23,155 nucleotides of DNA from a bacterium. GTDB taxonomy: Bacteria; SM23-31; JAUVVT01. The stretch spans positions 1 to 23,155 of the forward strand of contig JAUWXV010000031.1 in assembly GCA_030616165.1 (NCBI GenBank), written 5' to 3'. Position numbers and translations under genes: made by a program. Under the pieces are notes generated by a model. That model did no database searches. It worked only from the letters and a program-made list of their open reading frames with translations, and was not told where the DNA came from. Position 1 is the stretch's first letter. The number at the start of each line of letters is the position of its first letter. Positions 184 through 20,796 of the stretch are shown here, piece after piece.

Positions 184-216
184 GTAGGGGCGGGCTTGTC
201 CGCCTCTGGCGGATTT
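184..216 (+). repeat. REP-like element, GTAG + GGGCGGGC stem
   Basis: GTAG at 184-187 is followed by GGGCGGGC and an imperfect CCGCC return, then a second small hairpin CCGCC-TCT-GGCGG (200-212). Same family as the other GTAG-tagged palindromes of the window. Confidence 0.55.
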
Positions 217-388
217 ATCCTCCCAAATTCATTGTGTTGTTACTGTTACTAGTGCCATGTTAAATAACATATGTTCTTTTTTGTAATTTTTACAAAAAAA
301 TTTGACTGGAGTTAAGCATTTTTTTAATGAGAAAATAAAAAAAGTTCCTTAATTTTTATATTTGTATAATCTTCAAAAATATGTTAAC

Positions 389-426
389 GGACAGAACGCT
401 GCCTGCACACTGTGTTCTGTCCCTAC
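389..426 (-). repeat. REP-like element, GTAG + GGACAGAAC stem
   Basis: GGACAGAAC (389-397) pairs with GTTCTGTCC (414-422) and is followed by CTAC (423-426), so on the minus strand it reads GTAG then the palindrome. It matches the element at 3551-3588 at 34 of 38 positions, including the loop, in opposite orientation. Confidence 0.7.
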
Positions 427-454
427 ATAACAATCATTTATGATTAAATATATT

Positions 455-479
455 GTAGGGACAGGACATTGTCCTGTCC
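455..479 (+). repeat. REP-like element, GTAG + GGACAGGAC stem
   Basis: GTAG (455-458), GGACAGGAC (459-467), loop ATT, GTCCTGTCC (471-479). Perfect 9-bp stem directly after GTAG. Confidence 0.65.
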
Positions 480-610
480 TTCTGTATAAAATAAAAGTTA
501 ATTTTATGTCATTTATTATTTCTCCATTTCAAAAAATGTCAAAAAAATATATATCATTTATTATTTAATAAGGCACTGCTTAAGACCGTATTAATTAATT
601 ATTCAACAAG

Positions 611-661
611 AAGGGCGGGCCTGCCCGCCTCTGGTGGATTTATCCGCCAAAGGCGGATTTG
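611..661. repeat. GGGCGGGC / AATCCGCC double hairpin repeat
   Basis: GGGCGGGC-CT-GCCCGCC is followed by ATCCGCC-AAA-GGCGGAT. Related in sequence to the elements at 184, 6488 and 13379, but without a recognisable GTAG. Confidence 0.5.
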
Positions 662-895
662 GCATTGATAATTTGTGTGAAAAGGGATTTAATATAAATA
701 ATTTCTTTTTTCAAGAGACCCTAAGCAGTTTGGAGGTAAAGAAATTTAACAGAAAAAGATGTAAGGATGGTCAAGGAAGTGATGTGGTTTGAGTTTTGTT
801 TGAGTCCCAGAATATTACTATTTGCGAATCATTAGATTTGAAATATTAGAAATTATTAAAAACAAAAACAATTAAAATATTTTTTATCTTTTCCC

Positions 896-2740
896 TTATC
901 TTATTTTCTCCAAGTTTGATATAATTTCTTGATAATATAACGGATATTTTTCAAGGGTAAATATTTTCAAAGCCTCTTCATAAGCTATAATTGCCTTGTT
1001 CAGATTATCCTCTTTATCCCGGACTTCGGAAAGAACTTCATAGGCAAGCCCCAGATAATATTGTGTTCCTGCATATTCGAGTGGGTATTTCTTAATAGTT
1101 TTTATTTTTAAAGCTTCTTTAAAAGCACTAATAGCCTTGTTCAGATTAGCCTCTTCATCCCGAACTTCGGAAAGACCTGCATAGACAAGCCCCAGAGTAT
1201 TCTGTGCCTTTGCATATTCGAGTGGGTATTTCTTAATAGTTTTTATTTTTAAAGCTTCTTTATAAGCACTAATAGCCTTATTAATATTAGCCTCTATATC
1301 TCGAACTATGGAAAGACCTCTATAGGCATTCCCCAGATTATACTGTGTTCCTGCATATTCGAGTGAGTATTTCTCAATAGTATAAACTTTTAAAGCCTCT
1401 TCAAAAGCACTAATAGCCTTGTTCAGATTATCCTCTTTATCCCGAACTTCGGAAAGACCTCCATAGGCAAGTCCCAGATTATACTGTGTTCCTGCATATT
1501 TGATTGGGTATTTCACAAGAGTAAATATTTTCAAAGCCTCTTCAGAAGCTCTAATAGCCTTATTCAGATTAGCCTCTTTATCCCGGACTTCGGAAAGATC
1601 TCTATAGGCAATTCCCAGATTATTCTGTATTCCTGCATAGTTGATTGGGTATTTCACAATAGTGTAAATTTTCAAAGCCTCTTCAGAAGCTCTAATAGCC
1701 CTGTTCAGATTAGCCTCTTTATCTCGAACTTCGGAAAGACTCCTATAGGCAGTTCCCAGATTAATCTGTGTTCCTGCATAATAAAGTGGGTCTTTCTCAA
1801 TAGTATAAATTTTCAAAGCATCTTCAAAAGCTCTAATTGCCTTGTTCAGATTAGCCTCTTTATCTCGAACTTTAGAAAGATAGACAAGTCCCAGATTATT
1901 CTGTGTCATTGCATATTCGAGCGGGTATTTCTCAATAGTAAAAATTTTCAAAGCCTCTTCATGAGCACTAATTGCATCTTTCAGATTATCCTCTTTATCT
2001 CGAACTTCGGAAAGATTACTATAGGAAAGTCCCAGATTATTCTGTGTTCCTGCATATTCGAGCGGGTTTTTCTCAATAGTAAGAATTTTCAAAGCCTCTT
2101 TATAAGCTCTGATTGCCTTGTTCAGATTATCCTCTTTATCCCGGATTTCGGAAAGACCCCAATAGGCATTCCCCAGATTATTCTGTGTCTGTGCATAATC
2201 GAGTGGGTCTTTCTTAATAGTCCTGATTTTTAAAGCTTCTTCATAAGCACTAATTGCATCTTTCAGATTATCTTCTTTATTTCGAACTTCGGAAAGATCC
2301 CCGTAGGCAGTTCCCAGATTATTCTTTGTCTTTGCATAGTCGAGTTGGTATTCCTTAATAGTATAAATTTTCAAAGCCTCCAAAAAGGCATATATGGCAC
2401 TTTCCAGGTTTTGTTCCTTATTGCTTTTCTCAGATAAATCCAAGTAACATACACCTAATTGAGAATTTATTTCGCCATAAAAATAAGGTTCTTCTTTTTC
2501 TGTTATTTCCATCAATAAATTATCGTACACTTTTAATGCGTCTTCAAGTTTAGTTTCTTTTATTAGTCTCCCAGCATAATCTATTTTATCTCTAAATTCT
2601 TTTTTTCTTTGTTTTTCTTCTAAATGATTAATAATAACCCACGTTAAAATTGCAACTATCACTCCAGTTGTTATCGTAAAGACAAATTTATTTTTCTTTA
2701 TCATTCTAACAATATTTTTAGTTTTAGTGAAAATTTTCAT
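896..2740 (-). CDS. Membrane-anchored TPR-repeat protein, 614 aa
   Basis: Probable protein-protein interaction scaffold. Residues about 19-41 form one hydrophobic segment after a basic N-terminus, so the protein is probably a signal-anchor protein with its bulk outside the cytoplasm. From about residue 105 onward there are eleven copies of a 47-residue TPR-type unit (NL..AI.A.EEALKI.TI, then P.EYA.TQ.NLG.AY..LSEVRDKE). The fourth unit has lost two residues. The DNA shows the same 141-bp period, with neighbouring units very alike, so the array probably grew by tandem duplication and may vary in copy number. No catalytic domain (CHAT, kinase, protease) is fused to it. The ribosome site is weak (GGATTG before ATG). 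The gene stands alone, and its partner cannot be named from this window. TPR assignment is strong; function is unknown. Confidence 0.88.
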   Translation of the reverse strand: MKIFTKTKNIVRMIKKNKFVFTITTGVIVAILTWVIINHLEEKQRKKEFRDKIDYAGRLIKETKLEDALKVYDNLLMEITEKEEPYFYGEINSQLGVCYLDLSEKSNKEQNLESAIYAFLEALKIYTIKEYQLDYAKTKNNLGTAYGDLSEVRNKEDNLKDAISAYEEALKIRTIKKDPLDYAQTQNNLGNAYWGLSEIRDKEDNLNKAIRAYKEALKILTIEKNPLEYAGTQNNLGLSYSNLSEVRDKEDNLKDAISAHEEALKIFTIEKYPLEYAMTQNNLGLVYLSKVRDKEANLNKAIRAFEDALKIYTIEKDPLYYAGTQINLGTAYRSLSEVRDKEANLNRAIRASEEALKIYTIVKYPINYAGIQNNLGIAYRDLSEVRDKEANLNKAIRASEEALKIFTLVKYPIKYAGTQYNLGLAYGGLSEVRDKEDNLNKAISAFEEALKVYTIEKYSLEYAGTQYNLGNAYRGLSIVRDIEANINKAISAYKEALKIKTIKKYPLEYAKAQNTLGLVYAGLSEVRDEEANLNKAISAFKEALKIKTIKKYPLEYAGTQYYLGLAYEVLSEVRDKEDNLNKAIIAYEEALKIFTLEKYPLYYQEIISNLEKIR

Positions 2741-3490
2741 AATTCAATCCAATTCTATTTTTTATTAATTATTTTGAAATATACTCTCATCAAAACTGCC
2801 TTAATAAAATGTTTCTATTTAAGATAAAGAAAATTTATATTTATTACAAGGCAAGATGATGCTGAAACTTTTTAAAAATTTTAATAAATATATATTCATT
2901 ATAGATTTCAATTTTTAAAGTAACCGTATTTTATTGAATTAAATCTGTATAATCCTCTAAAATAGGGATTTAAAAATTAAATCCTGCCGTGCCTTTTGTT
3001 TAGTGTTTTGAATGCATTTGAACCTCTACATTTAAATATATATAATGTTTCGTGTAAAAGTAAAGATAAGCTATAATTTTTTATTTATATTATATAATAT
3101 GTTGGTTTATAAAAAATTTTTTAAAATGTTTACGAAAAAAGTATTGTGGAAATTTTGGGGAAACAATACTTATTTATTTTTATTATTTTAGTTTTCTTCC
3201 CCGTTTTTTTTTGGTGGAAGCGTGAGTCCGATAAACCGTTCGAGATGTGTTGAAGAATAAGATGAAGAGGAACTTCGATAGTAGAATGTTTTTATTTAAA
3301 TATATTATGAAAAACAGCGAAAAACAAGGAAAAATAAAAAAATTTTTAATAATTTTTAGATTTGGAATTTAAGTTAGTTTATTATAAATATGCGAAAATT
3401 GGGGGAGATGATAATTGGTTGTTTTTTGGTGAAAGCATGAGTCTAAGGAACGATTTACGAATGTAGAATGAAAATAATTAACAGCAGATG

Positions 3491-3517
3491 GGTAGAGACG
3501 CCCGGCAGTGCGTCTCC
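3491..3517 (+). repeat. REP-like element, GTAG + AGACGC stem
   Basis: GTAG (3492-3495), AGACGC (3496-3501), loop, GCGTCT (3510-3515). Same architecture as the other GTAG-tagged palindromes; a relative with ATAG lies at 12967-12992. Confidence 0.5.
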
Positions 3518-3550
3518 ATATTTCTATTTTTAATCTATTTTTTACAAACT

Positions 3551-3588
3551 GTAGGGGCAGAACACAGTGTGCAGGCATTGTTCTGCCC
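3551..3588 (+). repeat. REP-like element, GTAG + GGGCAGAAC stem
   Basis: GTAG (3551-3554), GGGCAGAAC (3555-3563), 16-nt loop, GTTCTGCCC (3580-3588). It is the opposite-strand sister of 389-426. The two stem differences between them lie at paired positions (A-T there, G-C here), so the stem is conserved by a compensatory change. Confidence 0.7.
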
Positions 3589-3595
3589 TTGTTTA

Positions 3596-3672
3596 TTTTC
3601 TTCCCTGCCCTTCGGGCTTGCCCTTCGGGTCTGCGTCCATGCCCTCTGGGCTTGCCCGCCTCTGGCGGGTCT
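3596..3672. repeat. Cluster of mini-hairpins (CCCTTCGGG, GCCCTCTGGGC)
   Basis: Back-to-back short palindromes: CCCTTCGGG twice, GCCCTCTGGGC, then CCCGCC-TCT-GGCGGG. Each is a 3-6 bp stem closed by a 3-nt loop. Two similar clusters follow at 3867-3921 and 4064-4112. Confidence 0.55.
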
Positions 3673-3796
3673 GCGGTCTATTATTATTCTTTCCAATCCT
3701 TATTTTAATTGCTTTTGCATTTAAATCCTGCTAAAAGCTAATAGCTAACAGCAATGTTTTTATAATTGTTTTAATCTATTTTCATTTTTACCAAAT

Positions 3797-3818
3797 GTAG
3801 GGGCGAATTTATTCGCCC
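3797..3818 (+). repeat. REP-like element, GTAG + GGGCGAAT stem
   Basis: GTAG (3797-3800), GGGCGAAT (3801-3808), TT, ATTCGCCC (3811-3818). Perfect 8-bp stem directly after GTAG. Confidence 0.65.
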
Positions 3819-3866
3819 TCTCTGTTTTCAATTAATATTTTATCATATTTTTATTATCCTTTCTCT

Positions 3867-3921
3867 GCCTGCCCTGTGGGCCTGCCTTGTGGGTGCCCTC
3901 TGGCTGCCCTTTGGGTGGTTT
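3867..3921. repeat. Second cluster of GCCCTNTGGGC-type mini-hairpins
   Basis: Contains GCCCTGTGGGC and degenerate relatives (CCTTGTGGG, GCCCTCTGGC, GCCCTTTGGGT) in tandem. Lies just upstream of the promoter at 3949. Confidence 0.5.
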
Positions 3922-3948
3922 CTTTTAGCAAAAAAACTAAAAAAGTTC

Positions 3949-3977
3949 TTGACAAAACGAAAATATTTCCGTATATT
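3949..3977 (+). promoter_or_regulatory. Consensus sigma-70 type promoter
   Basis: TTGACA at 3949-3954, a 17-bp spacer, and TATATT at 3972-3977. The -35 box is perfect and the spacing optimal. Expected transcription start is near 3984 on the plus strand. No normal gene follows; the next annotated gene is on the other strand. Confidence 0.55.
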
Positions 3978-4063
3978 AATATATAGTTATAATATATAAT
4001 AACTTTTATCTTGCAATTTAGTATTTTAAGTAGGTGTAAAAAATGGATTTAACAGAAAGAATA

Positions 4064-4112
4064 CCTGCCCTATGGGCGTTCTCTGCCTGCCCTTTGGGCC
4101 TGTCCTGTGGAT
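4064..4112. repeat. Third cluster of GCCCTNTGGGC-type mini-hairpins
   Basis: GCCCTATGGGC and GCCCTTTGGGC occur 24 bases apart, followed by a degenerate GTCCTGTGGAT. It lies inside the candidate small RNA. Confidence 0.5.
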
Positions 4113-4190
4113 GGTTAAAGAAAATATCCAACTTTTTTCGAATAAATTCTTGCTTTAACCCTTGAAATTAAATAAATTAACCCCTGGCAC

Positions 4191-4246
4191 AAAATTCCCA
4201 AAAACTCACATATATGGGAAGAATGGGAATTTTGGCACTTTTTTCC
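4191..4246 (+). terminator. Terminator-like hairpin with T-run
   Basis: AAAATTCCCA (4191-4200) is perfectly inverted at 4224-4233 (TGGGAATTTT), then GGCAC and TTTTTT. The T-run is on the plus strand, so it would stop the transcript from 3949. The T-run starts six bases after the stem, and the loop is long, so this is not a canonical terminator. On the minus strand it lies 80 bases past the NamZ stop without a T-run. Confidence 0.35.
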
Positions 4247-4313
4247 CACAAAACAAAATAAAAAAGCCCTTTTAGCCATATTGTCAAGGAATAGGTGTTG
4301 TGTGCATTAATTT

Positions 4314-5603
4314 TTAATCATAGAGGTAGTATTTTCTACTCATTGCTTTAAATTCTTCAGTATTCTTTTTGTAACTCTGGACAACTTTTTCGACGGTCAT
4401 TCCGGGTTTGTCCAAATCTTTCAGGGGTTCCGGCGGAAACCATATTAGTGAATCCGGGCTTGTTTTACGGTATGCATCAATTATATGAAGGGCGGCTTCA
4501 ACGGAACGGTATGCTTTGTAATCGGTTAACATTATTTCAACACCGCCGCACATCTGGTTCCACGGTTTTGTATATGGGCGGCTGGTGCGCCGGGATGACT
4601 GACGGGTCGCACTTTTTGGAATAAAGTAAACGGGGCGAAATATCGCACCGGGGATGTTCCTGCTGTTTAGGTCTTTTGCCGCTTTTATGGCGTTGACCCA
4701 TGGGGCTCCTGTTATAAGAAATGGTTTTGTAGTTCCACGTGCTTCAGATATGTTCATTCTTTCAAAAAGACACTGCCCAGGATATACAACCGCTGTCTCA
4801 TAAGTATCCATGTTAGGAGAAGTCATTACCCAAAACAGACCTGTATCATCCCACGTCATATTCCTTCGCCATCCTTTCATCTTAATTACGGTTAGAGCGG
4901 CACCTACACCTTCCCGCTCGTTCCACATCGCTGCCAATTCTCCATAGGTCATCGCGTGGCGAAGGGGAAGTGGTTCCTGTAAAGATTTCCAAAGGTCAAG
5001 AAAAGGACCTTCCACAACTTCACCGCCCAGTGGATTTGGCCTGTCCAATACAATATACGGTATCTCTGCTTCTGCACATGCTTTCATGGATAAAAACATT
5101 GAATACTTAAAGGTGTACCATGGTGTTCCTACGCCCTGAATATCGAAGATGAGAACATCGAGCATTTCGAGCCATTCTTTTTTCGGGGCACGACTTTCTC
5201 CGTATAGGCTGTAAACCGGAATTTTTGTTATTGGGTCTAATTCACCTTCCTTGTCAATTCGGCCCTGCATTGCCCCACGGACACCATGCTCTGCTCCAAA
5301 AAGTGCCGCCAGATTAACGGCAGGATTTTCTGCCAGAACATCAATATCACTCCGCAAATCTGAGGTAACGGCTGAGGGATTAGTAATCAGCCCGACGCGT
5401 TTACCCCTGATAAGGTCGAGGTGGTCTTCGATAAGCACCTCAATACCCGGTTTGACTGCCGGAGCCCTCTTGACAAATGAAGGCGGAGAGACGGGCGCTC
5501 TCCTGTCGATGACTTCTCCTTTCCAGATGCTACATGAAAAGAGAGTGCAGATGAGTGTGAAAAAAATAGATAATGCAGCCATGAATGTAATTTTTCTTCG
5601 CAT
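4314..5603 (-). CDS. namZ: NamZ-type exo-beta-N-acetylmuramidase lipoprotein (DUF1343, GH171)
   Basis: Members of this family remove terminal N-acetylmuramic acid from peptidoglycan fragments and so serve cell-wall recycling or scavenging. The 429-residue length fits the family with a lipoprotein leader: MRRK, a hydrophobic stretch, then a lipobox LFSC with Cys24. The mature protein starts the DUF1343 region with GIEVLIEDHLDLIRGKRVGL. The signature FGAEHGVRG follows near residue 100, and later DRPNPLGG and a YPGQCLFE-type segment are present. AAAGGA lies seven bases before the ATG, supporting this start. The gene stands alone, with no murQ, amgK or nagZ nearby. A 6-bp hairpin (5629-5648) lies in its leader. 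The family call is firm; enzymatic activity is inferred from the family. Confidence 0.88.
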   Translation of the reverse strand: MRRKITFMAALSIFFTLICTLFSCSIWKGEVIDRRAPVSPPSFVKRAPAVKPGIEVLIEDHLDLIRGKRVGLITNPSAVTSDLRSDIDVLAENPAVNLAALFGAEHGVRGAMQGRIDKEGELDPITKIPVYSLYGESRAPKKEWLEMLDVLIFDIQGVGTPWYTFKYSMFLSMKACAEAEIPYIVLDRPNPLGGEVVEGPFLDLWKSLQEPLPLRHAMTYGELAAMWNEREGVGAALTVIKMKGWRRNMTWDDTGLFWVMTSPNMDTYETAVVYPGQCLFERMNISEARGTTKPFLITGAPWVNAIKAAKDLNSRNIPGAIFRPVYFIPKSATRQSSRRTSRPYTKPWNQMCGGVEIMLTDYKAYRSVEAALHIIDAYRKTSPDSLIWFPPEPLKDLDKPGMTVEKVVQSYKKNTEEFKAMSRKYYLYD

Positions 5604-5628
5604 AAGTATTCCTTTCTATTTTATATTC

Positions 5629-5648
5629 AGTGGGCTGTGAAACCCACT
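5629..5648 (-). repeat. Hairpin AGTGGG...CCCACT in the namZ leader
   Basis: AGTGGG (5629-5634) pairs with CCCACT (5643-5648). It lies 26-45 bases upstream of the namZ start, so it would fold in the mRNA leader if transcription starts above it. Confidence 0.4.
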
Positions 5649-5684
5649 TATTATGTGAGATACCCGGGGCGATCATGGATAATA

Positions 5685-5702
5685 CCCTCGATTCATCGAG
5701 GG
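5685..5702. repeat. Hairpin CCCTCGAT-TC-ATCGAGGG
   Basis: Perfect 8-bp stem with a 2-nt loop. No GTAG tag. Probably another dispersed palindromic repeat. Confidence 0.5.
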
Positions 5703-5722
5703 ATTAATGATATTTTGAAGGA

Positions 5723-5743
5723 TGGTTCGCGAACCACCCCTAT
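5723..5743 (-). repeat. REP-like element, ATAG + TGGTTC stem
   Basis: TGGTTCGCGAACCA (5723-5736) is a perfect palindrome followed by CCCCTAT, i.e. ATAGGGG then the palindrome on the minus strand. Confidence 0.55.
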
Positions 5744-5774
5744 AACATAGAATGAAAAATTATTATTTTAAAGA

Positions 5775-5813
5775 GGGCGAACACACAGTGCACGCACAGG
5801 GGTTCGCCCCTAC
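5775..5813 (-). repeat. REP-like element, GTAG + GGGCGAAC stem
   Basis: GGGCGAAC (5775-5782), 19-nt loop, GTTCGCCC (5802-5809), then CTAC (5810-5813). On the minus strand it reads GTAG-GGGCGAAC. Loop resembles the CACAGTGTGCAGGC loop of the 389 and 3551 elements. Confidence 0.65.
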
Positions 5814-5962
5814 AATCGTGTCATGCGAAAATTTATGATTTTATAATTATATTGTCAAGAAATAAGTATTGTGGCAACGAATTTTAAAGATATTGAACCG
5901 CAGAGGGACAGAGACGCAGAGGTAAAAAGGACCAGAAAGATAAATGTGGGATTGAGTAATGA

Positions 5963-5996
5963 GGGTGAAGGTGAAGAACATCTTTGCCAGCAGAAA
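5963..5996 (+). repeat. GGTGAAGGTG...CTTTGCCAGCAGAA repeat
   Basis: GGTGAAG and CTTTGCC are imperfectly inverted, followed by AGCAGAAA. Near-copy at 6687-6718; its tail recurs at 8906-8918 and 20760-20772. Confidence 0.5.
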
Positions 5997-6086
5997 TTCA
6001 CAAAATTCTTTATTTTATCAGGAAACTTATTTATATTATTAAAATATTAGGGAATTAGATTTGAAGATGATTGGGCAAAAAAGTGG

Positions 6087-6110
6087 GTTCCCGCTTTCAC
6101 GGGAATGACA
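6087..6110 (+). repeat. TTCCCG...CGGGAATGACA dispersed repeat
   Basis: TTCCCG-CTTTCA-CGGGAA followed by TGACA. Same family as 13499-13583, 16147-16407 and 20827-20852. Confidence 0.6.
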
Positions 6111-6270
6111 AATGTGGTTGATGATGTTTTTAGGTAATTTATAGAAAATTAATTTATTTGAGGGAAGTATTTTCGTGAGACCACATTAATAACAGAACTT
6201 TGGTAAATTTTGAAAAACCATTATTTTTTGTGAATATATTGGGCTTCTTGATTCACAAAAGAAGCGGTAA

Positions 6271-6294
6271 GGGCGGTTCACGAACCGCCCCTAC
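6271..6294 (-). repeat. REP-like element, GTAG + GGGCGGTTC stem
   Basis: GGGCGGTTC (6271-6279), AC, GAACCGCCC (6282-6290), CTAC (6291-6294). Perfect 9-bp stem; minus strand reads GTAG then stem. Confidence 0.7.
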
Positions 6295-6487
6295 AACGGG
6301 ACAGAATGTATTGTTTGTTAATCTTTTAAATGCTGAAATAATACTGAATCAAGTTCAGCACAGGGTTCAGGATGACAAGATGTTATAAACCGGCTTAGAG
6401 GGATGGCGGAGTTAGGGACGATCTAACCTATTGATATATTATTTCAGAGTGCAACGAAATATGGAAATATATTATATTTTTACAGAA

Positions 6488-6532
6488 AGGGCGGGTAAAC
6501 CCGCCAGAGGCGGAAAAGCCCGCCGCCCCTAC
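6488..6532 (-). repeat. REP-like element with GGCGGGT stem and GTAG
   Basis: GGCGGGT (6490-6496) pairs with ACCCGCC (6499-6505), then CCGCCCCTAC ends at 6532, giving GTAGGGGCGG on the minus strand. Compound relative of the 184 and 13379 elements. Confidence 0.5.
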
Positions 6533-6596
6533 GCTCTGTTGGTGACAATACCAACCCGAAGGGCACGCAGGGGGTATAAAAACAGAGTTTTTCAAT

Positions 6597-6662
6597 CATT
6601 CTCGTTCCCAAACAGAGTTTGGGAACGAGAATGAGAATAGGAACAGAGTTTGGGAACGAGAA
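6597..6662. repeat. CTCGTTCCCAAAC hairpin repeat with an extra half copy
   Basis: CATTCTCGTTCCCAAAC (6597-6613) is perfectly inverted at 6617-6633 with a 3-nt loop, a 17-bp stem. The right arm is then repeated directly (CAGAGTTTGGGAACGAGAA, ending at 6662). No GTAG. Confidence 0.65.
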
Positions 6663-6686
6663 CGAGGATTGGAACTCTCAAAAAAA

Positions 6687-6718
6687 GGGTGAAGGTGCAG
6701 AGCATCTTCACCAGCGAA
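6687..6718 (+). repeat. GGTGAAGGTG...CTTCACCAGC repeat
   Basis: GGTGAAG and CTTCACC form a perfect 7-bp stem. Near-copy of 5963-5996; it sits 43 bases before the start of the next gene. Confidence 0.5.
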
Positions 6719-6760
6719 AAATAATTAGTCTATCACGCAACTATACGGAAGGGGAAAGCG

Positions 6761-8857
6761 ATGATTAAAAGATTCAGAAGCACTTTTATATTTTTAAGTC
6801 TCTTATTAATTTTAATAATTGTCGGCGTTTTAAATATGGATGAGCAGGGTATAAGAATTCCTTTAAAGGATGGGATATTAGCAGATGAAGATTTTTCCGA
6901 CCTTCCGACAGGTTCATTTTCGAGGATGAGGACTCCACTTTACGAATATCATTTTATTCCTGAGGAAAAATATCGCGGTAATTGGAAAGAAGCAACGACA
7001 TTTCAGGCGTCAATTGGAGGGATTCCTACTCCTCTTGGGACGTGGAATGTTATAGAAGTTGATGAACACCACGAAATGGAACAATCTTCCGTGAATAGAA
7101 GAGGACATACATTTCCGATGATTATTACTGGTGATGCTGATTGGACGGATTATACTTTAGAATGTGAATTAAGGCCACTTTCAGTTAAAAGTATGGTGGG
7201 AGTTATGTTCCGCTACCAAAACAGCAGGAATTTTTATTATTTATGTTTTGATAATGGAGACAAAATTCAGTTGAGAAAAATCGAGCACGAACTTGAATTT
7301 CATGCTGCGAACTGGACGATACTCGCGAGTAAAGAATTTAAATATGACTGCAATAATTATTATCATATTAATGTTGAAATTTTCGGGAGCGGAATAAAAG
7401 TTTATGTCAACAGTCAACCTGTATTTGATTTATATAATGAGACTTTCGGAACAGGTAAAGTTGGATTTATGGCAAATATTCCAGTAAGATATAAATATAT
7501 AAAGGTGTATACCACTCCTGATATAGAACGCTCTTTTTTAGAAAAGAAGAGAAAAGAGACCGAAGAATTGAATGCACTTCGAGAGAAATATCCAAAACCA
7601 AAACTATGGAAAAAGATAAATACACCTGACTTTGGTGCAGGAAGAGCGTTTAGGTTTGGCGACCTTAACGGCGACAATGAACTTGATATTCTAATCGGTC
7701 AAAATATTCGAAGGGTTCCGGGAGAGGGTGATGCTTATACTATGATAAGTTGTCTTACAGCAATTGACCTTGATGGGGACATTTTATGGCAGTTTGGTGA
7801 GCCGAACAAAGACCATGGGCTTTTGACGAGTGATATTGCATTTCAGATTTATGATATTGACCAGGATGGGAATAATGAGGTAGTTCTAACAAAAGATTTT
7901 AAAATTTTAATCCTTGACGGAAAAACAGGCAAGATTAAAAAAAGTTGCCCTACTCCATATTCGACACAAGCCGCACCAGCATTTTATCGGATGATTGGAG
8001 ACTGCTTTTATTTTGCTAATCTTTCAGGTAGAAAGGCACCTCAAGAAATTATTCTGAAGAATAGATATACAACATTCCGGGTTTATAATGAGAACCTTGA
8101 ATTCCTTTGGTCTGGTGAATGTAAAACAGGTCATTTTCCCTATTCCTTTGATATTGATGATGATGGTAGAGATGAAATAATGATGGGATACACGATGTTT
8201 GATGATGATGGAGAGATTCTCTGGTCGCTTGATAATGAACTCAACGACCATGCGGATGGGGTGTTTGCTGGGAAACTTTCGGATGACCCTTCTGCTGAAC
8301 CAATTGTTGTGATATCAGCGAGTGATGAAGGATTTTTGACTGCTGATAAGAATGGTAATATTAAAAAGCATGTAAGAATAGGTCATGCCCAGAGTCCCAG
8401 TATAGGGAATTATAGACCCGATGTTGCAGGTCTCGAGATTTGCCAGATAAATTTCTGGGGAAATCCGGGGATTATCACATTTTTTGACTGTGAAGGGAAT
8501 ATACTTCTATCGATTGAACCTGTAAATTATGCAAGCCCAATACTTCCGGTGAATTGGACAGGAAATGGACAGGAGTTTGTAATGATATCCGGAAATGTTA
8601 AAGAGGGTGGTCTTATGGATGGTTGGGGCAGAATGGTAGTAAAGTTTCCAGATGACGGGCATCCCGATTTATGCTTTAATGTTATGGACATAACCGGCGA
8701 CCCAAGAGATGAAATTGTGCTGTGGAACCAAAAAAGTATCTGGATTTATACACAGGATAAGTCAGTTCAATTTGAAAGAATTTATAAACCTGTAAGGAAT
8801 CCTCATTATAACGAGTCAAATTACAGGACTAATTATTCTCTGCCCCGGTGGGAATAG
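6761..8857 (+). CDS. Anchored LamG-like plus FG-GAP/beta-propeller protein, 698 aa
   Basis: Probable cell-surface or periplasmic carbohydrate-active or carbohydrate-binding protein. Residues about 8-24 are one hydrophobic anchor without a clear cleavage site. Residues about 120-250 look like a concanavalin A-type jelly roll of the LamG/DUF1080 kind (DWTDYTLECELRP, GVMFRYQNSRNFYYLCF, GTGKVGFMA). From about residue 300 to the end there are repeated calcium-binding-type blade motifs (GDLNGDNELDILIG, DIDQDGNNEVVL, DIDDDGRDEIMMG, DITGDPRDEIVLW), as in FG-GAP/VCBS propellers. The DDDGRDEI...DDDGEILWS..NDHADGVFAG stretch recalls rhamnogalacturonan lyase family PL11, but I cannot confirm catalytic residues. 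GGAAGGGG seven bases upstream supports the start. It probably shares a transcript with the next gene, 73 bases downstream. The domain reading is fairly sure; the substrate is unknown. Confidence 0.82.
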   Translation: MIKRFRSTFIFLSLLLILIIVGVLNMDEQGIRIPLKDGILADEDFSDLPTGSFSRMRTPLYEYHFIPEEKYRGNWKEATTFQASIGGIPTPLGTWNVIEVDEHHEMEQSSVNRRGHTFPMIITGDADWTDYTLECELRPLSVKSMVGVMFRYQNSRNFYYLCFDNGDKIQLRKIEHELEFHAANWTILASKEFKYDCNNYYHINVEIFGSGIKVYVNSQPVFDLYNETFGTGKVGFMANIPVRYKYIKVYTTPDIERSFLEKKRKETEELNALREKYPKPKLWKKINTPDFGAGRAFRFGDLNGDNELDILIGQNIRRVPGEGDAYTMISCLTAIDLDGDILWQFGEPNKDHGLLTSDIAFQIYDIDQDGNNEVVLTKDFKILILDGKTGKIKKSCPTPYSTQAAPAFYRMIGDCFYFANLSGRKAPQEIILKNRYTTFRVYNENLEFLWSGECKTGHFPYSFDIDDDGRDEIMMGYTMFDDDGEILWSLDNELNDHADGVFAGKLSDDPSAEPIVVISASDEGFLTADKNGNIKKHVRIGHAQSPSIGNYRPDVAGLEICQINFWGNPGIITFFDCEGNILLSIEPVNYASPILPVNWTGNGQEFVMISGNVKEGGLMDGWGRMVVKFPDDGHPDLCFNVMDITGDPRDEIVLWNQKSIWIYTQDKSVQFERIYKPVRNPHYNESNYRTNYSLPRWE

Positions 8858-8900
8858 TTTTTTTACTTTTTTATTGAAAGTTTTATTATATTGTTGAGGG

Positions 8901-8918
8901 AACCCTTCGCCAGCAGAA
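8901..8918 (+). repeat. TTCGCCAGCAGAA motif before the stalk-domain gene
   Basis: The 13-mer at 8906-8918 is identical to 20760-20772 and resembles the tails at 5963 and 6687. It directly abuts the ribosome-binding sequence AGGAG of the next gene. Confidence 0.5.
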
Positions 8919-8930
8919 AGAGGAGTCGTA

Positions 8931-9329
8931 ATGATTAGAGGACAGTATTTTTTACTGATAATTATAGTTTTAATAATAATAGTTGTAATTTTTGCACAGA
9001 AGACGATTTACCAGAATGTATATGATGTTGAAATAAATGGAAAAACTGCTCCATATTCGTTAAAGTCAATAAGGATTGAGGATGAGGAAATTTATATTGC
9101 ATCTTCCTACCTTGAAGAACATGGAGGTTTGAAAGCGAAGGTAAATAAAGATGAAATTGTTATGTTTAAAGATGATTTGAGTGTTATGTTTAGGATGGGT
9201 GAGGAAAAGAGTGATGCGTTCAAAAAGTCTGGCAGGTATTTCATACCGTTAAAGTATCTTATAGAAGGGCTTGGAGGTAAATATGTCTGGGATAAGGAGA
9301 ATAAGATATTAATTATCAATTTTTATTAA
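8931..9329 (+). CDS. Small membrane-anchored stalk-domain protein (copper amine oxidase N-like)
   Basis: The protein of 132 residues begins with a hydrophobic segment (about residues 5-22) and is therefore anchored or exported. The remainder resembles the copper amine oxidase N-terminal 'stalk' domain: two similar halves, the first with IYIASSYLEEHGGLKAKVNKDEIVMFK, the second with GRYFIPLKYLIEGLGGKYVWDKENKILII. That domain is usually an extracellular adhesion or scaffold module and binds no copper itself. AGGAG lies six bases before the ATG. The gene follows the propeller protein by 73 bases on the same strand, so the two probably form one unit, with the small protein perhaps assisting surface attachment; this is inference. 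A large inverted repeat follows the stop. Confidence 0.75.
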   Translation: MIRGQYFLLIIIVLIIIVVIFAQKTIYQNVYDVEINGKTAPYSLKSIRIEDEEIYIASSYLEEHGGLKAKVNKDEIVMFKDDLSVMFRMGEEKSDAFKKSGRYFIPLKYLIEGLGGKYVWDKENKILIINFY

Positions 9330-9357
9330 GTGTTCATGATTCAAGTTTAAAAAGGTT

Positions 9358-9447
9358 AAAACCGCGAATTTCGCTAATCAAAACTAATTGATTTTTATTA
9401 AATTGTGTAATATTAAATTAATGAAATTCGCGTAATTAGCGGTTTTT
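9358..9447. repeat. Inverted repeat AAAACCGCGAATTTCGC ... GCGGTTTTT
   Basis: AAAACCGCGAATTTCGCTAAT (from 9358) is imperfectly inverted at 9423-9447 (GAAATTCGCG...TTAGCGGTTTTT). It starts 28 bases past the stop of the stalk-domain gene and ends in five Ts, so it could also terminate that transcript. The stem arms are 44 bases apart. Confidence 0.5.
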
Positions 9448-9498
9448 AGAGCGGACTCGTTTATTTCACCCGATATGTTTAAATTCGATGAATGGGAC

Positions 9499-11817: not shown

Positions 11818-11823
11818 TAATAT

Positions 11824-12912: not shown

Positions 12913-12966
12913 TTATTTTTACCTTTTAATTAGATGTGTTGTAGGTTAATAAACATTCTAATAAAA

Positions 12967-12992
12967 TGAGACGCAGTGCGTTGAGTCTCTAT
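12967..12992 (-). repeat. REP-like element, ATAG + GAGACTC/GCGTCTC stem
   Basis: GAGACGCAGTGCG...GAGTCTC followed by TAT. On the minus strand it reads ATAGAGACTC then an imperfect return; a relative of the 3491 element. Confidence 0.45.
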
Positions 12993-13009
12993 GGATTTAC
13001 AGATTATTT

Positions 13010-13076
13010 TTTCAGGTGTGTCTCATCAAGTCCTATTATTAATTTTTTTCACTCAATAATAGGACTCCTTTCAGGT
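13010..13076. repeat. 12-bp inverted repeat between 8-bp direct repeats
   Basis: AGTCCTATTATT (13029-13040) is perfectly inverted at 13055-13066. The pair is bracketed by TTTCAGGT at 13010-13017 and 13069-13076, as a target duplication would be. Confidence 0.45.
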
Positions 13077-13185
13077 AATAATTCTTTCAAATTAGTTAAA
13101 AAGATGTGATTTTTTTTATATAATAGAAATTTGGCAGATTTTAATTTGTTAGCATAAACATTGTTAATTTAGGTATTTTTAATAT

Positions 13186-13325
13186 GAGATTGCCCCGAGG
13201 TCTCGGGACTCCTCGCAGTGACGTGTATTTATTGGTCTTACGGCTGCAAAAGTGTGTTGGTAACAATATAAACATAAAGCTAATTGTTTTGATTTTTAAG
13301 CCTTGATTTAATTTTTACCAAAGTT
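13186..13325 (+). repeat. AGATTGCC...CTCGCAGTGAC element plus 114-bp repeat, copy A
   Basis: GAGATTGCC, hairpin CCCGAG-GT-CTCGGG (13194-13207), CTCGCAGTGAC, then AT-rich sequence. 13212-13325 aligns without gaps to 17860-17973 with 10 mismatches in 114 (91% identity). Confidence 0.75.
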
Positions 13326-13378
13326 ATGTTATAATTTCAAGAGGATTTCACGAAATTCGTAAGTTATTAATTGCGTAA

Positions 13379-13459
13379 GGGCGGGCTTGTCCGCCTCTGG
13401 TGGGTTTACCCGCCCTCATTATAAGGGCGAACCCAAAGGACAAGCAATTTCGCCCCTAC
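13379..13459 (-). repeat. Two adjacent GGGCG hairpin elements, the second GTAG-tagged
   Basis: First GGGCGGGC...GGTGGGTTTACCCGCCC (13379-13414), then GGGCGAA (13425-13431) pairing with TTCGCCC (13449-13455) and CTAC (13456-13459). Confidence 0.55.
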
Positions 13460-13498
13460 GCGGGAATTTATCAGATATTATAAATATAAATACTTTTT

Positions 13499-13583
13499 GT
13501 CATTCCACCGAGTACTCGGGGGAATCCAGAGCTAAAACTGATTTAAAGCATAATACTGGATTCCCGCCTGCGCGGGAATGACA
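13499..13583. repeat. TGTCATTCC...GGAATCCAG / CTGGATTCCC...GGAATGACA repeat
   Basis: Two half elements in inverted orientation, one at 13499-13528 and one at 13556-13583, with TGTCATTCC and GGAATGACA as outer ends. The same paired layout occurs at 16330-16407. Confidence 0.65.
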
Positions 13584-13681
13584 TGTGGGCGTGGGAATGA
13601 AAACTTTTACTAATGCTTTTTTTGATTATTTCTAAAAAGTATTTTTATGAAATCCTGTTATAATTTCAATATTAATCAATT

Positions 13682-14215
13682 TTAAAAAATGTCCTTTAAG
13701 GGTAAGCCATGTTCCTGAATGGCTTTTTCGATAATTCTGTCCAATCTTCCCCTGACTTCGGCTATTATCAAATCATCGTCATTCAGGACGATTGTGTAGA
13801 TGCCAATAATGTCTTCACTTTTTTGTTTATAATAACATTCAACCATCTCATTTTTTTCTCTAACCCGAACAAAAACTTCCCACCCTGACTCATGTAATAC
13901 CTTTTTGACAGTATCAGGGATTTTTAATTCGGCTGGTTGATTAGTCTTCTTTATTTTATAAACACCGACCTGAACCTTCATAATTTCATCTAAATATGGG
14001 CTTGCTTCGTCTTCTGTGTCTATTAAATTAATAATTGTCTTAACTGGAAAAAGTAAAACAGGACCAAGGTTTAATTTGAGATATGTTTTCGTCTTTGCAG
14101 GTTGAATCTGCTTTTCAATTGCGTGCTGAACGTCATTGAACTCGTTTGTTGTGCATCCACTGCTCCACATTATAAATATCCCGAGTAGAAACAAAAGCAA
14201 AGATGATTTTTTCAT
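13682..14215 (-). CDS. DUF4252-type lipoprotein, 177 aa
   Basis: Exported protein of unknown function, last gene of the sigma-factor operon. A hydrophobic leader ends in SSGC (Cys21), so it is a probable lipoprotein. The C-terminal half (VKKVLHESGWEVFVRVREKNEMV, then LNDDDLIIAEVRGRLD) matches the same region of the upstream 183-aa gene (KNWERMVRVKEAKQRV, ISDDEAVFVNIIGNID) and the general DUF4252 pattern, so the two are paralogues. It lies 67 bases downstream of its sister, with a GTAG-type hairpin between them that might alter its relative expression. In other bacteria DUF4252 genes often follow ECF sigma/anti-sigma pairs, as here. Role unknown. Confidence 0.72.
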   Translation of the reverse strand: MKKSSLLLFLLGIFIMWSSGCTTNEFNDVQHAIEKQIQPAKTKTYLKLNLGPVLLFPVKTIINLIDTEDEASPYLDEIMKVQVGVYKIKKTNQPAELKIPDTVKKVLHESGWEVFVRVREKNEMVECYYKQKSEDIIGIYTIVLNDDDLIIAEVRGRLDRIIEKAIQEHGLPLKDIF

Positions 14216-14241
14216 TATTTATCCTAAAAAATTTATATTTC

Positions 14242-14267
14242 CCGACCCTGTGGACAGGGTCGGCTAC
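14242..14267 (-). repeat. REP-like element between the two DUF4252 genes
   Basis: CCGACCCTG (14242-14250), loop TGGA, CAGGGTCGG (14255-14263), CTAC (14264-14267). Perfect 9-bp stem with GTAG on the minus strand, the same strand as the operon, so it is transcribed in the operon mRNA. Confidence 0.65.
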
Positions 14268-14282
14268 GAAGCTCTTTTTATT

Positions 14283-14834
14283 TTAGTACTTCATATCACC
14301 TAATTTGGGGATGCCGAATTTATCTCCCAATTTCCCTAATTGAGCAGGGTCAATGTTGCCAATAATATTTACAAATACCGCCTCATCATCACTTATAGCC
14401 ATAACGACCAATCCTGATAGTATGTCATCAATGAACTGATTATAAATCTCGACGCGTTGTTTTGCCTCTTTAACGCGAACCATTCTTTCCCAGTTTTTTG
14501 ATTCTAATTCTTTTGATATTCTATTAATGACAGATTCTACTTCATCGAAACTTATTTCATCCATTGGAAAAACGTCTACTTTAATTAATTTCAGGTTTTC
14601 CAATAACCGTGATAATTCTGGATCTTCTTTTTCGGCCGCTTTAGAAACAAATCTCAAAAGGGATCCTTTGATAGAAACTTCGACCTTTTTTTCTATATCT
14701 TTAAAAAAATCAAAGTTTTCAAAATCAACATATCCCGGAGCTTCTTTAGTATCTTCATTTTCCTGCGCTAATGAGCAGGGCACACTATACCAGATAAAAG
14801 CAGAAGCGATAAAGAGAAAAATTAATCTTTTCAT
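14283..14834 (-). CDS. DUF4252-type exported protein, 183 aa
   Basis: Third gene of the operon, starting only three bases after the anti-sigma stop, hence almost surely co-transcribed and translationally coupled. A signal peptide (hydrophobic residues about 4-19, SLA-QE cleavage near 23) predicts export. The mature protein shows the DUF4252 layout: VDFENFDFF, VEVSIKGSLLRFVSKA near residue 60, LKLIKVDVFPMDEIS, KNWERMVRVKEAKQRVEIY, then ISDDEAVFVNIIGNID. It is paralogous to the next gene. No catalytic motif is evident. It may be a target or sensor of the envelope response governed by the sigma factor; that is inferred from position only. Confidence 0.75.
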   Translation of the reverse strand: MKRLIFLFIASAFIWYSVPCSLAQENEDTKEAPGYVDFENFDFFKDIEKKVEVSIKGSLLRFVSKAAEKEDPELSRLLENLKLIKVDVFPMDEISFDEVESVINRISKELESKNWERMVRVKEAKQRVEIYNQFIDDILSGLVVMAISDDEAVFVNIIGNIDPAQLGKLGDKFGIPKLGDMKY

Positions 14835-14837
14835 AAT

Positions 14838-15371
14838 TTACCCTCCGTTTAAAATTGGTTTAAATGCTGTTCTTATTGGTTTAATAAGATAGTTTTGTAT
14901 AATCTGGGTTTCCATTATTTGTTCAGTCTTTGCAGTGAAATAATGAAAGTAAGCCAGGGCTGTTTCAACATCCTTTTTTGCCTTTTCGACTTCCTGGGCT
15001 GTGTATTGTGGTGGAACAGGTTCTTGATACTCTAAATGCGGATAAATAACAAAAATACCCAAGATAATTACCGCAAGTGCGAAACTGATTTTCCAAGAAT
15101 GCCTTTCTAAGATTGTATTATAAATATTTGTAAGAAAAGATGGTTTTGAATCATCTACCCTAACAGAATGAAATACTTTTTCAATAACCGTATCAGGACA
15201 TTTTTCTTGTGGAAGGGTATGTAATTTTTCTACAATTTCTTGATAATAATTAAAAGCGGTTTGGCATTTTGAGCATTCTTTTAAATGAGTCTCTATTTCA
15301 ATTTTTTGCTCTGCAGTTATTTCGCCTTCCACGTAATCTGCAATTATGTTGTCAAATTCCTGGCATGTCAT
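14838..15371 (-). CDS. Zinc-finger anti-sigma factor, membrane-spanning, 177 aa
   Basis: Probable inhibitor of the ECF sigma factor encoded six bases upstream. The N-terminus is a zf-HC2 domain: Cys3 and the motif H29-x3-C33-x2-C36 (HLKECSKC), the usual zinc ligands of ZAS-type anti-sigma factors. One transmembrane segment lies at about residues 95-111, followed by a periplasmic part of some 65 residues (PPQYTAQEVEKAKKDVETALAYFHYFTAKTEQIM), probably helical. It would hold the sigma factor at the membrane until an external signal or proteolysis releases it. The gene overlaps neither neighbour but is tightly packed between them, which argues for stoichiometric expression. The function is inferred from family and context; high confidence. 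Confidence 0.88.
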   Translation of the reverse strand: MTCQEFDNIIADYVEGEITAEQKIEIETHLKECSKCQTAFNYYQEIVEKLHTLPQEKCPDTVIEKVFHSVRVDDSKPSFLTNIYNTILERHSWKISFALAVIILGIFVIYPHLEYQEPVPPQYTAQEVEKAKKDVETALAYFHYFTAKTEQIMETQIIQNYLIKPIRTAFKPILNGG

Positions 15372-18046: not shown

Positions 18047-20257
18047 CTATGGATTTACTGGCTTAAATATAATGACACTTAATGGAGGAAGAATTATGTT
18101 AATAGAAAATGGTCTTTCCTGCCATGGTATTGATTCAGCCATAACTCCTCCCATATTCCCGAAATTGGTGCCGCCATAGATTTCTGAATCGCTGTTCAGT
18201 ATTTCTTTATAGTATCTATATTCTGGAACACCTATTCTATAGCCAAATCTTGGAACGGGAGTAAAATTATATATAAACAGGAGGAAATCTTTTGGATTTT
18301 TTGTTTTTCGAATAAAGGAAATTACACTGTGATTGACATCGCGGAAATCTATCCATTCAAAGCCACTGGTATCGAAATCGATTTCGTAGAGGGCTGGTTG
18401 TGATTTGTATAGAAGATTTAAATCTCTGACATATTTTTGCAATTTTAGATGGAGTTCATATTCAAGCAGATGCCAGTCAAGACTTTTGTTTACCTGCCAT
18501 TCAATCCACTGACCGAATTCTCCGCCCATAAACAGGAGTTTTTTTCCCGGATGCCCGTACATAAATCCATAAAATAATCTTAAATTTGAAAACTTTTGAT
18601 TATAATCACCCGGCATTTTATCAATGATTGACCTTTTGCCATGAACTACTTCATCATGGGATAAGACAAGAATGAAGTTTTCGGTAAATGCATACAGCAG
18701 GCTGAAAGTTAAATTATTGTGGTGGAATTTTCTGTGAATAGGGTCTTTACTTATAAATTCGAGAGAATCATTCATCCATCCCATATTCCATTTCATCGAA
18801 AATCCAAGCCCTCCCACATATGTGGGTCTTGAGACCATTGCCCAGGCGGTAGATTCTTCTGCCATTGTCAAAGTTCCCGGAAAATTAAGATGAACTACTT
18901 CATTAAATTTTTTAACGAAATTTATTGCTTCGAGGTTTTCATTTCCTCCATATTTATTTGGAATCCATTCGCCCGGACTCCTTGAATAATCCAAATAAAG
19001 CATGGAAGCCACAGCATCCATTCTCAAACCATCTATATGATACTTTTTAAGCCAGAAGAGTGCGTTACTGATAAGGAAATTTTGCACTTCATTACGGCTG
19101 TAATTGAAGATAAGTGTTCCCCAGTCTTTTTGTTCTCCTTTTCTTGGGTCAGCGTGCTCATATAAATGAGTACCATCAAAGAATGCCAAACCATGTGCAT
19201 CCCTGGGAAAATGTGCCGGGACCCAATCGATGATAACACCAATTCCCTCCTGATGGCATTTATCGATGAAGTACATAAAGTCCTCAGGTTTCCCGTGTCT
19301 GCTTGTCGGAGCATAATAGGCTATAGTCTGGTAGCCCCAAGATTCTTCTAAAGGATGTTCAGTAATTGGCAGAAGTTCTATATGTGTGTATCCCATATTT
19401 TTAATATATTGGACTAATTTTTCCGACAGTTCCCGATACGTCAGGTGTCGGTCGCTTTCTTCGGGGACGCGCATCCAGGAACCAAGATGAACTTCATAAA
19501 TTGATACAGGTTTTTCGAGCCAATTAGTATTTTTTCGGGCATCCATCCATGTATCATCTCCCCATTCATATCTGTCTATATTATGAACAATTGAAGCAGA
19601 TTTTGGAGGTTTTTCACAAAAGAATGCATAAGGGTCGGATTTAATCGAAATAGTATTATTATATTGAGATTTTATTTCATATTTATAAATGAGATCCTTT
19701 TGGAGACCGGGTATAAAGATTTCCCATATTCCCGAACCTGCCCTGTTGTTCATAGGATGAATTCTGCCATCCCATCTGTTAAAATTACCTATAACACTTA
19801 CTCTTACTGCATTAGGAGCCCAAACAGCAAAGTGCACTCCAGATGTGCCTTCAATTTCGATATAATGTGCACCCATCTTTTCATAAGACTGATAATGCGT
19901 TCCTTCAATCAAAAGATGAATGTCAAAGTCCGTTAAAATCGGAGTAAAATTATACGGGTCTTTAAATTCCTTATATTTTCTATCTCCCTCTTTTATCCTA
20001 AAATGATAAGGAAAGTATTCATCGCAATTTTTAAAAACTGCCTCATAAAATCCATCCCTGTGAATTTTAGTCATTTTTACTGCTTTTTTTGGAGCTCGAA
20101 TAATCCATGCTTCTTTACTATGAGGGAAAAATCCTCTTATTATAACTGCCTCCCTGTCGTTAATTTTATGCTGACCTAATATATCAGACGGTGTTGAATA
20201 TTCACCATTTATTATTGAGTTAATCTCTGTTTTGGGTGTAAAAGAGACTTTTTTCAT
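18047..20257 (-). CDS. glgB: 1,4-alpha-glucan branching enzyme GlgB, 736 aa
   Basis: Forms alpha-1,6 branches in glycogen by cutting and transferring alpha-1,4 chains in the cytoplasm. The N-terminal module (about 1-110) and CBM48 (about 125-225: [25 protein letters not shown]) precede the GH13 barrel. Catalytic residues are in place: nucleophile D414 in DGLRMDA, acid/base E467 in MAEESTAW, and D535 in SHDEVVHGK; the 53- and 121-residue spacings equal those of the E. coli enzyme. GEFGQWIEW and a C-terminal all-beta domain follow. Full length, so the protein is intact. The ribosome site is weak (AGAAG). No glgA, glgC or glgP is near, so glycogen genes appear scattered in this genome. Confidence 0.97.
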
Positions 20258-20423
20258 TAGTGTCTTCTGAGATTTGTTTAGAATTTATATTATTTATAAA
20301 TTATAATATATCTATTTATATCTTTTTATACAAGTAAGAAATTAATATTACCCAAAAATTGTGATATAAAAAGATGATTTTGTTGAGATAAATATTAAAA
20401 AATATTCTTGACTATAATAAACA

Positions 20424-20527
20424 AGATTGCCACGTCGTCCCGAGTTCTCGGGACTCCTCGCAATGACATGAAGTTAATTTGTCATTGCGAGTGACCCAGA
20501 AAATTCGGGAGAGTGGAGGAATCTCTT
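20424..20527. repeat. Inverted pair of AGATTGCC...CGCAATGACA elements
   Basis: AGATTGCC, hairpin CCCGAG-TT-CTCGGG (20439-20452), CTCGCAATGACATG, then 20479-20527 reads TGTCATTGCGAGTGACCC ... GAGGAATCTC, the same element in inverse orientation. The 114-bp companion seen at 13212 and 17860 is absent here. Confidence 0.65.
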
Positions 20528-20537
20528 TGAAATTTTG

Positions 20538-20573
20538 TTTAGTATGGGCAAACGGCCGTTGGCCCATACTAAA
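20538..20573. repeat. 36-bp near-perfect palindrome
   Basis: TTTAGTATGGGC (20538-20549) and GCCCATACTAAA (20562-20573) are exact inverses around AACGGCCGTT; only the pair 20550/20561 mismatches. The central 20 bases differ from 20773-20792 by one base. CCCATAC replaces the CCCCTAC tail of the related REP-like elements. Confidence 0.7.
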
Positions 20574-20759
20574 TGGTATTTATTTTATTCTATCGCAATT
20601 TATTATTATTACTAGTTTAAAAAAAATTTAATATATTGGAACATATAATATTAAATAAATTGTTTATAAAAGGGAAACTAATGTATTGTAACTCATTTAA
20701 CTATTATTAATGATACAGTGATATAAAGAGATTATTATAGGTTATTTTGTGGGAACACA

Positions 20760-20772
20760 TTCGCCAGCAGAA
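20760..20772 (+). repeat. TTCGCCAGCAGAA motif
   Basis: Identical 13-mer to 8906-8918; here it directly touches the palindromic element at 20773. Confidence 0.5.
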
Positions 20773-20796
20773 GGGCAAACGGCCGTTTGCCCCTAC
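20773..20796 (-). repeat. REP-like element, GTAG + perfect 20-bp palindrome
   Basis: GGGCAAACGG and its inverse CCGTTTGCCC form a perfect palindrome (20773-20792), followed by CTAC (20793-20796), so the minus strand reads GTAG then the palindrome. Confidence 0.7.

Follow-up and report, generated by a model that had tools for sequence, protein, structure and literature searches.

The window analysed here, a 23,155-nucleotide stretch of bacterial DNA, carries short hairpins that share a GTAG tetranucleotide immediately 5′ of a palindrome while the stem word changes from one hairpin to another. A sequence-only reading had proposed that these are REP elements moved by RAYT transposases and had explained their variety by one tag tolerating many stems or by several RAYTs. 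This locus raises the question of how one genome comes to hold so many stems behind a single tag. We find that the window hairpins are very probably GTAG-type REP elements, and their stems would vary because the genome holds, or formerly held, about a dozen different RAYTs.

We scanned the window without prior coordinates for GTAG directly 5′ of a perfect palindrome, numbering each site by the first base of the tag. Such sites lie at 455, 3492, 3551 and 3797 on the plus strand and at 426, 5813, 6294, 6532, 13459, 14267 and 20796 on the minus strand. The hairpin at 9522 (minus) has one bulged base in its stem, and the element at 184 (plus) is longer than the other GTAG hairpins and imperfect. 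The elements of the window are as follows.

166–245, plus strand: left piece of a decayed, apparently RAYT-derived repeat; REP at 184 (GTAGGGGCGGGCTTGTCC...GGATTTATCC), then decayed RAYT codons toward the HUH motif
246–574, no strand assigned: insert of ~330 bp splitting that repeat, uninterrupted copies of which exist; ends resemble AGTGCC...GGCACT
389–426, minus strand: GTAG REP, stem GGGACAGAAC, long loop (palindrome scan); stem GGGACAGAACA lies within the RAYT remnant C302:3127
455–480, plus strand: GTAG REP, stem GGACAGGAC (palindrome scan, folding)
575–724, plus strand: right piece of the apparently RAYT-derived repeat, with decayed codons of the HUH region, a second REP that has lost its tag, and the end TTTTTTCAAGAGACCCTAA
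3492–3518, plus strand: GTAG hairpin, stem AGACGC/GAGACGC (palindrome scan, folding)
3551–3588, plus strand: GTAG REP, stem GGGCAGAACA (palindrome scan, genome pattern search, folding)
3797–3818, plus strand: GTAG REP GGGCGAATTTATTCGCCC, at least nine copies among 96 listed sites
5721–5743, minus strand: ATAG-tagged variant, palindrome GGTTCGCGAACC (palindrome scan)
5775–5813, minus strand: GTAG REP, stem GGGCGAAC, part of a 111-bp stretch that recurs next to the decayed transposase of contig C24 (87% over 112 bp)
6271–6294, minus strand: GTAG REP GGGCGGTTCGTGAACCGCCC, 29/29 identity to a REP flanking the RAYT on C268
6489–6532, minus strand: composite GTAG REP (GGGCGG.../GGCGGGTTTACCCGCC), 86% over 49 bp to a REP copy 3′ of the stop codon of the RAYT on C283
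9499–9522, minus strand: GTAG REP GGGATTCGATTTATCGAACCC, 93% identity across 27 bp with repeats that flank the RAYT at C182:26.2k
12968–12995, minus strand: ATAG-tagged weak hairpin, GAGAC stem (direct reading; too weak for the palindrome scan)
13378–13415, no strand assigned: REP with its tag lost, 38/38 identity to a REP after the RAYT on C283
13425–13459, minus strand: GTAG REP, stem GGGCGAA, expanded loop (palindrome scan, genome pattern search, folding)
14242–14267, minus strand: GTAG REP CCGACCCTG-TCCA-CAGGGTCGG, between two DUF4252 genes; matches the array of 41-bp period at the RAYT C182:14.8k
20773–20796, minus strand: GTAG REP GGGCAAACGG/CCGTTTGCCC, 93% over 28 bp to a REP within the RAYT gene on C268

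The earlier count of about fifteen hairpins, two of them with ATAG, needs some correction. The ATAG variant at 5743 (minus) is a clean palindrome, whereas the one at 12967 is weak, with a 5-bp stem, and two tag-less elements, at 612–648 and 13378–13415, had been overlooked. The tagged layout is borne out both by the scan and by a ranking of tetramers: within the window, GTAG comes first among all 256 immediately 5′ of perfect palindromes of at least 8 bp (8 of 66; mean 0.37%; binomial P 1.8e-10). GGAG, tried as an alternative tag, gave 14 window matches, mostly weak. All 12 elements that we folded as single-stranded DNA were more stable than their own shuffles (z −2.3 to −5.7), and a search of the window against Rfam found no family. 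All 17 elements tested are intergenic, with the listed ORFs covering 61% of the window. The claim that none lies inside a gene therefore holds for the window; elsewhere in the genome, REPs sit inside RAYT genes.

The insert at 246–574 bears its REPs (389–426 and 455–480) as a tail-to-tail pair. This pair is repeated many times in the genome, often less than 100 bp from a contig end, and may therefore be a repeat of high copy number at which the assembly breaks. Runs of small palindromes (for example CCCTTCGGG, GCCCTCTGGGC and GCCTCTGGCGGG) occupy 3604–3670, 3860–3920 and 4070–4115, and words of this type also lengthen the loops of the REPs at 184, 6489 and 13425. Window positions 5795–5905 are 87% identical to positions 1860–1968 of locus L005, a stretch that includes a REP and also the string CACAATACTTATTTCTTGACA. 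Next to it, the C24 transposase is interrupted by TAG and bounded by CGGGGACACAATACT-like inverted ends, so that the unit resembles the TIR-type RAYT units of PMC3733652. Among the window's genes, 896–2740 (minus) encodes a 614-residue tetratricopeptide-repeat protein whose repeats are very regular at the DNA level, and 11824–12912 (minus) a strongly repetitive, glycine-rich protein of 362 residues with no Pfam match.

Genome-wide, too, GTAG precedes palindromes far more often than expected by chance. In a sample of arbitrary contigs from this genome, 162 kb in total, it is again the leading tetramer of the 256 (15 of 458; mean 0.31%; binomial P 3.4e-11). Across the genome searched (3.74 Mb in 343 contigs, 90% complete), the pattern GTAGGGGCN{4,34}GCCC matches 198 times, against 2 for its reversed-pattern control, and GTAGGGACN{4,34}GTCC 117 times, against 18. 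Together these two stem classes occupy about 300 genomic sites, a high copy number.

The same genome is rich in candidate transposases. It contains seven Y1_Tnp matches and 19 matches, at about 14 loci, to NF047646, the NCBI model of REP-associated tyrosine transposases. When proteins from six RAYT loci were run against ncbifam and Pfam, all matched NF047646 with E values of ~1e-14 or better. Those of C182:14.8k and C51 exceed the curated cut-off of 80 bits, while C302 (79.2), C283 (73.6), C182:26.2k (71.8) and C268 (54.3) score below it, still at E ~1e-14 or better. The best solved relative of the C302 protein by sequence is E. coli TnpA-REP (4er8, E 4e-7), a RAYT bound to a REP hairpin, and this structure is also the best PDB match of its AlphaFold model (pLDDT 81; Foldseek E 1.5e-8). 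In an alignment of 23 proteins, both HUH histidines, the WQ motif, Y148 and P153 are invariant; the alignment and the fold match place the HUH motif, W-Q and catalytic tyrosine on an IS200/IS605-type fold. Several of the copies are decayed or shortened. Searching the window with the RAYT proteins by tblastn gave nothing significant, in line with the earlier statement that the window holds no RAYT and that the source would lie elsewhere. That statement needs one amendment: a decayed RAYT fragment, detectable at the DNA level only, lies at 166–724.

Hairpins and transposase genes occur together. Within 300 bp of RAYT genes, hairpin density is 1.9/kb (leaving out the tandem array at C182:14.8k), 35 times the 0.056/kb of arbitrary contigs. 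Most RAYT loci carry GTAG hairpins within or beside the gene, with stems of their own, and for most window stems a similar one is found among them. The C182:14.8k gene lies within a GTAG-CCGAGCCTG array of 41-bp period, of the same kind as the window element at 14242. C268 has GGGCGAACGG in the gene and GGGCGGTTC adjoining it, the latter identical at 29 of 29 positions to window element 6271; GGGACAGAACA lies in frame at C302:3.1k (compare 389), and C182:26.2k has GGGCGCGAT and GGATTCGAT (compare 9499). C108 is flanked by GGGCACAGCG, and C278 and C207 carry GGGCAGAC types. We classified 96 sites from the 198-match search by hand, grouping them by eye, and most belong to classes seen at RAYT loci. 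The classes left unassigned are GGGCTTG (12 sites), GGGCGAATTTATTC (9) and GGGCGACYC (8). At the RAYT loci found in this assembly (90% complete, 343 contigs), we saw no match for the window stem GGGCGAATTTATTC (3797) or for the common genomic stems GGGCTTGATTTATCAAGCCC, nor a RAYT carrying the AGACGC stem of 3492. One locus that is a RAYT by model score, L179 on C51, has no GTAG hairpin nearby. The excess of GTAG, the ~14 RAYT loci and the stems they share with the window support the original identification of these palindromes as REP elements, and we infer that these RAYTs are active and move them.

REPs also lie within the reading frames of these transposases, an arrangement already published for subclass 2.4 (group 4) RAYT genes, where they generally fall between HUH and Y (PMC6006769). 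In C302:9.0k and its 92% identical twin C283, GGGTGAAC, GGGCGGAT and GGGCGGGT are all in frame, with GGGCGGAT mutated in C283. According to the AlphaFold model, the first REP of C302 is predicted to encode a disordered N-terminal tail (residues 7–15, mostly pLDDT <50), the second a helix end and turn preceding the HUH region (residues 68–75), and the third a loop preceding the WQ motif (residues 117–126). Two relatives have REPs at corresponding positions, with different stems: L039 reads SRRGDPCGRP at the first, where C302 has SRRGELIHP, and L038 reads SGGDGTPPLR before WQ, at the third, where C302 has REGRVNPPLR. These few cases are compatible with descent or with independent insertion. In related RAYTs, the in-gene sites appear to keep their codon positions while the stems turn over, and the gene itself may serve as the template by which transposase and REPs stay matched.

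With the C302 gene as query, a genome search revealed dispersed repeats whose DNA is shared with the central part of that gene. They belong to an element of 347 bp that has the terminal inverted repeats TTAGGGTCTACTGAAAAA and occurs in three full copies, 97–98% identical to the consensus used as query, plus about a dozen partial ones. Between its two inverted REPs and outside the hairpins, 41 of 48 bases (85%, no gaps) are identical to the C302 gene, with an alignment score of 61, where the best of 2000 shuffles scored 29. The two REPs agree with those in the gene in stem, order and orientation and differ in spacing, 77 against 150 bp. In the gene, the shared stretch encodes the HUH region (RIHCVVIAVDHIHGLFS); stop codons interrupt it in the repeat. 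A decayed element of this 347-bp kind is present in the window, at 166–245 and 575–724, split by the insert that carries the 389/455 REP pair. Positions 208–245 are 92% identical to the RAYT gene at C302:9014-9508 and to the element consensus, and positions 575–724 are 80% identical to consensus positions 218–347. The genome also holds a third, truncated copy of the C302-type gene on C259 (83% over 187 bp) and pieces of another RAYT, comprising HUH codons and an in-gene REP, on C38 and beside C268.

The element at 166–724 looks like a miniature that arose from a C302/C283-type RAYT gene by deletion between two in-gene REPs. A gene that came first and was then internally deleted would be the simplest reading of the 347-bp element, and such a deleted RAYT fits the hypothesis that REP doublets (REPINs) derive from an ancestral transposase element. 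The reverse is unlikely, namely that a REP-containing repeat entered the RAYT gene by recombination and brought that coding stretch with it, so that the 347-bp element would not be gene-derived. In keeping with it, this stretch is where C302 and C283, 92% identical overall, diverge the most (one block matches at 18 of 24 bases), and the element is nearer to C302 than to C283 (90% versus 77%). The stretch, however, encodes the catalytic HUH region, is alignable across all homologues and is stop-broken in the repeat, pointing to the gene as the older bearer. Local exchange between repeat and gene probably also happened, since it is in the shared stretch that C302 and C283 differ most.

On the gene-first reading, in-frame inverted REPs followed by an internal deletion would have given a dispersed miniature with decayed HUH codons, a trace of the birth of a REP doublet, from a gene whose REP sites stay fixed, whose stems turn over and which acts as their template. 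We advance this combined proposal tentatively, as a real possibility. REP doublets recur at fixed spacing in the genome, and the RAYT-derived doublet has, in addition, the terminal inverted repeats TTAGGGTCTACTGAAAAA; another transposase may therefore move it. In G041, the genome of the closest named relative that we identified (locus L038), only the REP part of the RAYT gene has further copies and the gene body has none, so the RAYT-derived repeat is not general there.

As for the variety of stems, it is improbable that a single RAYT with a loose stem requirement produced them all. One gene can hold several, as the three of C302/C283 and the three different stems in and around the C268 gene illustrate, but the ~14 divergent RAYT loci have differing classes of stem, loop and length, and in relatives from other bacteria hairpin length and loop cluster by locus. 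We collected the loci of 80 relatives by RAYT protein search of named bacterial genomes from several phyla (best protein match 51% identical). In nearly all of the 40 relatives whose loci we inspected, GTAG hairpins lie within the gene or next to it, with different stems. In total, 161 hairpins were found at 69 of 88 loci, and sharing within loci exceeded sharing between loci for length (0.89 versus 0.25), loop (0.63 versus 0.34) and stem word (0.71 versus 0.48). Length and loop separate the loci most strongly; label shuffles never reached the observed values, although related loci are not independent. Published biochemistry, in which RAYT action depends on GTAG and on positions in the loop (PMC8266576), agrees with this clustering. 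Among four other genomes searched, the listed matches of G021 and G041 likewise show many stem types; stem diversity is therefore usual for such RAYT-bearing genomes. Between the two accounts offered at the outset, the answer is thus mainly several RAYTs, with the addition that the stem word also drifts within one lineage.

It is very improbable that the hairpins are mainly intrinsic terminators or mRNA-end stabilisers, selected between genes and tagged incidentally, because, despite their intergenic placement, the terminator-like scores of ~6 of the 17 and the 20 terminator-like sites in positions 1–15000 (11.3 in shuffles, sd 3.4), terminators do not need the GTAG that is the top tetramer here, many hairpins lack a T run, several lie 500–1000 bp from the nearest ORF, and near-identical stems occur at unrelated loci and within transposase genes. 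Several REPs do resemble weak terminators, and a role in RNA ends alongside their REP nature is possible.

With several RAYTs as the source, the proposed sequence of events would run as follows. Each RAYT would recognise GTAG and the hairpin on single-stranded DNA, cut and rejoin it, as suggested by the fold, motifs and matched stems and as established for other RAYTs (PMC8266576). Each would spread its own REPs, leading to many stems in one genome, in agreement with the co-location and matched stems. Within a lineage the stem word would drift, with the GTAG tag, hairpin length and loop staying similar. REPs would land or persist in RAYT frames, where the sequences place them, wherever the encoded peptide is a presumably tolerant tail or loop. 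Finally, deletion between two in-gene REPs would yield a miniature that was then amplified, possibly by another transposase as its terminal inverted repeats suggest.

That one genome can hold multiple REP families and their matching RAYTs is already published (Di Nocera et al. 2013, PMC3733652). The GTAG REP super-family with REPtrons of that study shares with this genome the terminal GTAG, stems of 6–13 bp, a mostly intergenic location, several families per genome and repeat-specific RAYT loci. Unlike that system, some REPs here are part of a larger repeat with RAYT coding sequence, a case we did not find named in that account. Our search of the open-access literature likewise found no published report of a RAYT gene stretch including HUH codons between REPs in a dispersed element with terminal inverted repeats.

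Many of the about a dozen RAYTs appear to be of the group 4 kind, TnpA-REP subclass 2.4 (BMC Genomics 2018, PMC6006769), and most have REPs of their own inside the gene and around it. The likeness extends to a stem base of three G-C pairs (GTAGGGG...), double-foot REPs and REPs in frame within the transposase gene. C268 and C108 have these stem-base pairs and in-frame REPs (that of C108 having lost its GTAG) together with the NH[IFV]H, WQ and YIxNNP motifs, and C182:26.2k comes close (NHLH, YIIDNP). C302 and C283 have the REP features of group 4 but read DHIH and YIENHP/YMENHP in place of NH[IFV]H and YIxNNP, and we do not place them in that group. Of their three in-gene REPs, moreover, two precede the HUH motif, in contrast to the position between HUH and Y in group 4.

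As in REPINs (PLoS Genetics 2011, PMC3116915), the dispersed unit here is an inverted REP doublet, thought in REPINs to depend on a RAYT in trans. The RAYTs of that study were described as single-copy, seemingly immobile genes, whereas the C302-type RAYT has two near-full copies and a fragment. Most of what we describe confirms known REP biology in a RAYT-rich bacterium. For the origin of REP doublets, repeats with a piece of the gene between the same REPs offer concrete sequences on which to test the origin model: the published proposal traces REPINs to REPs on the flanks of an ancestral element, and here both the REPs and the intervening DNA match the interior of a RAYT gene.
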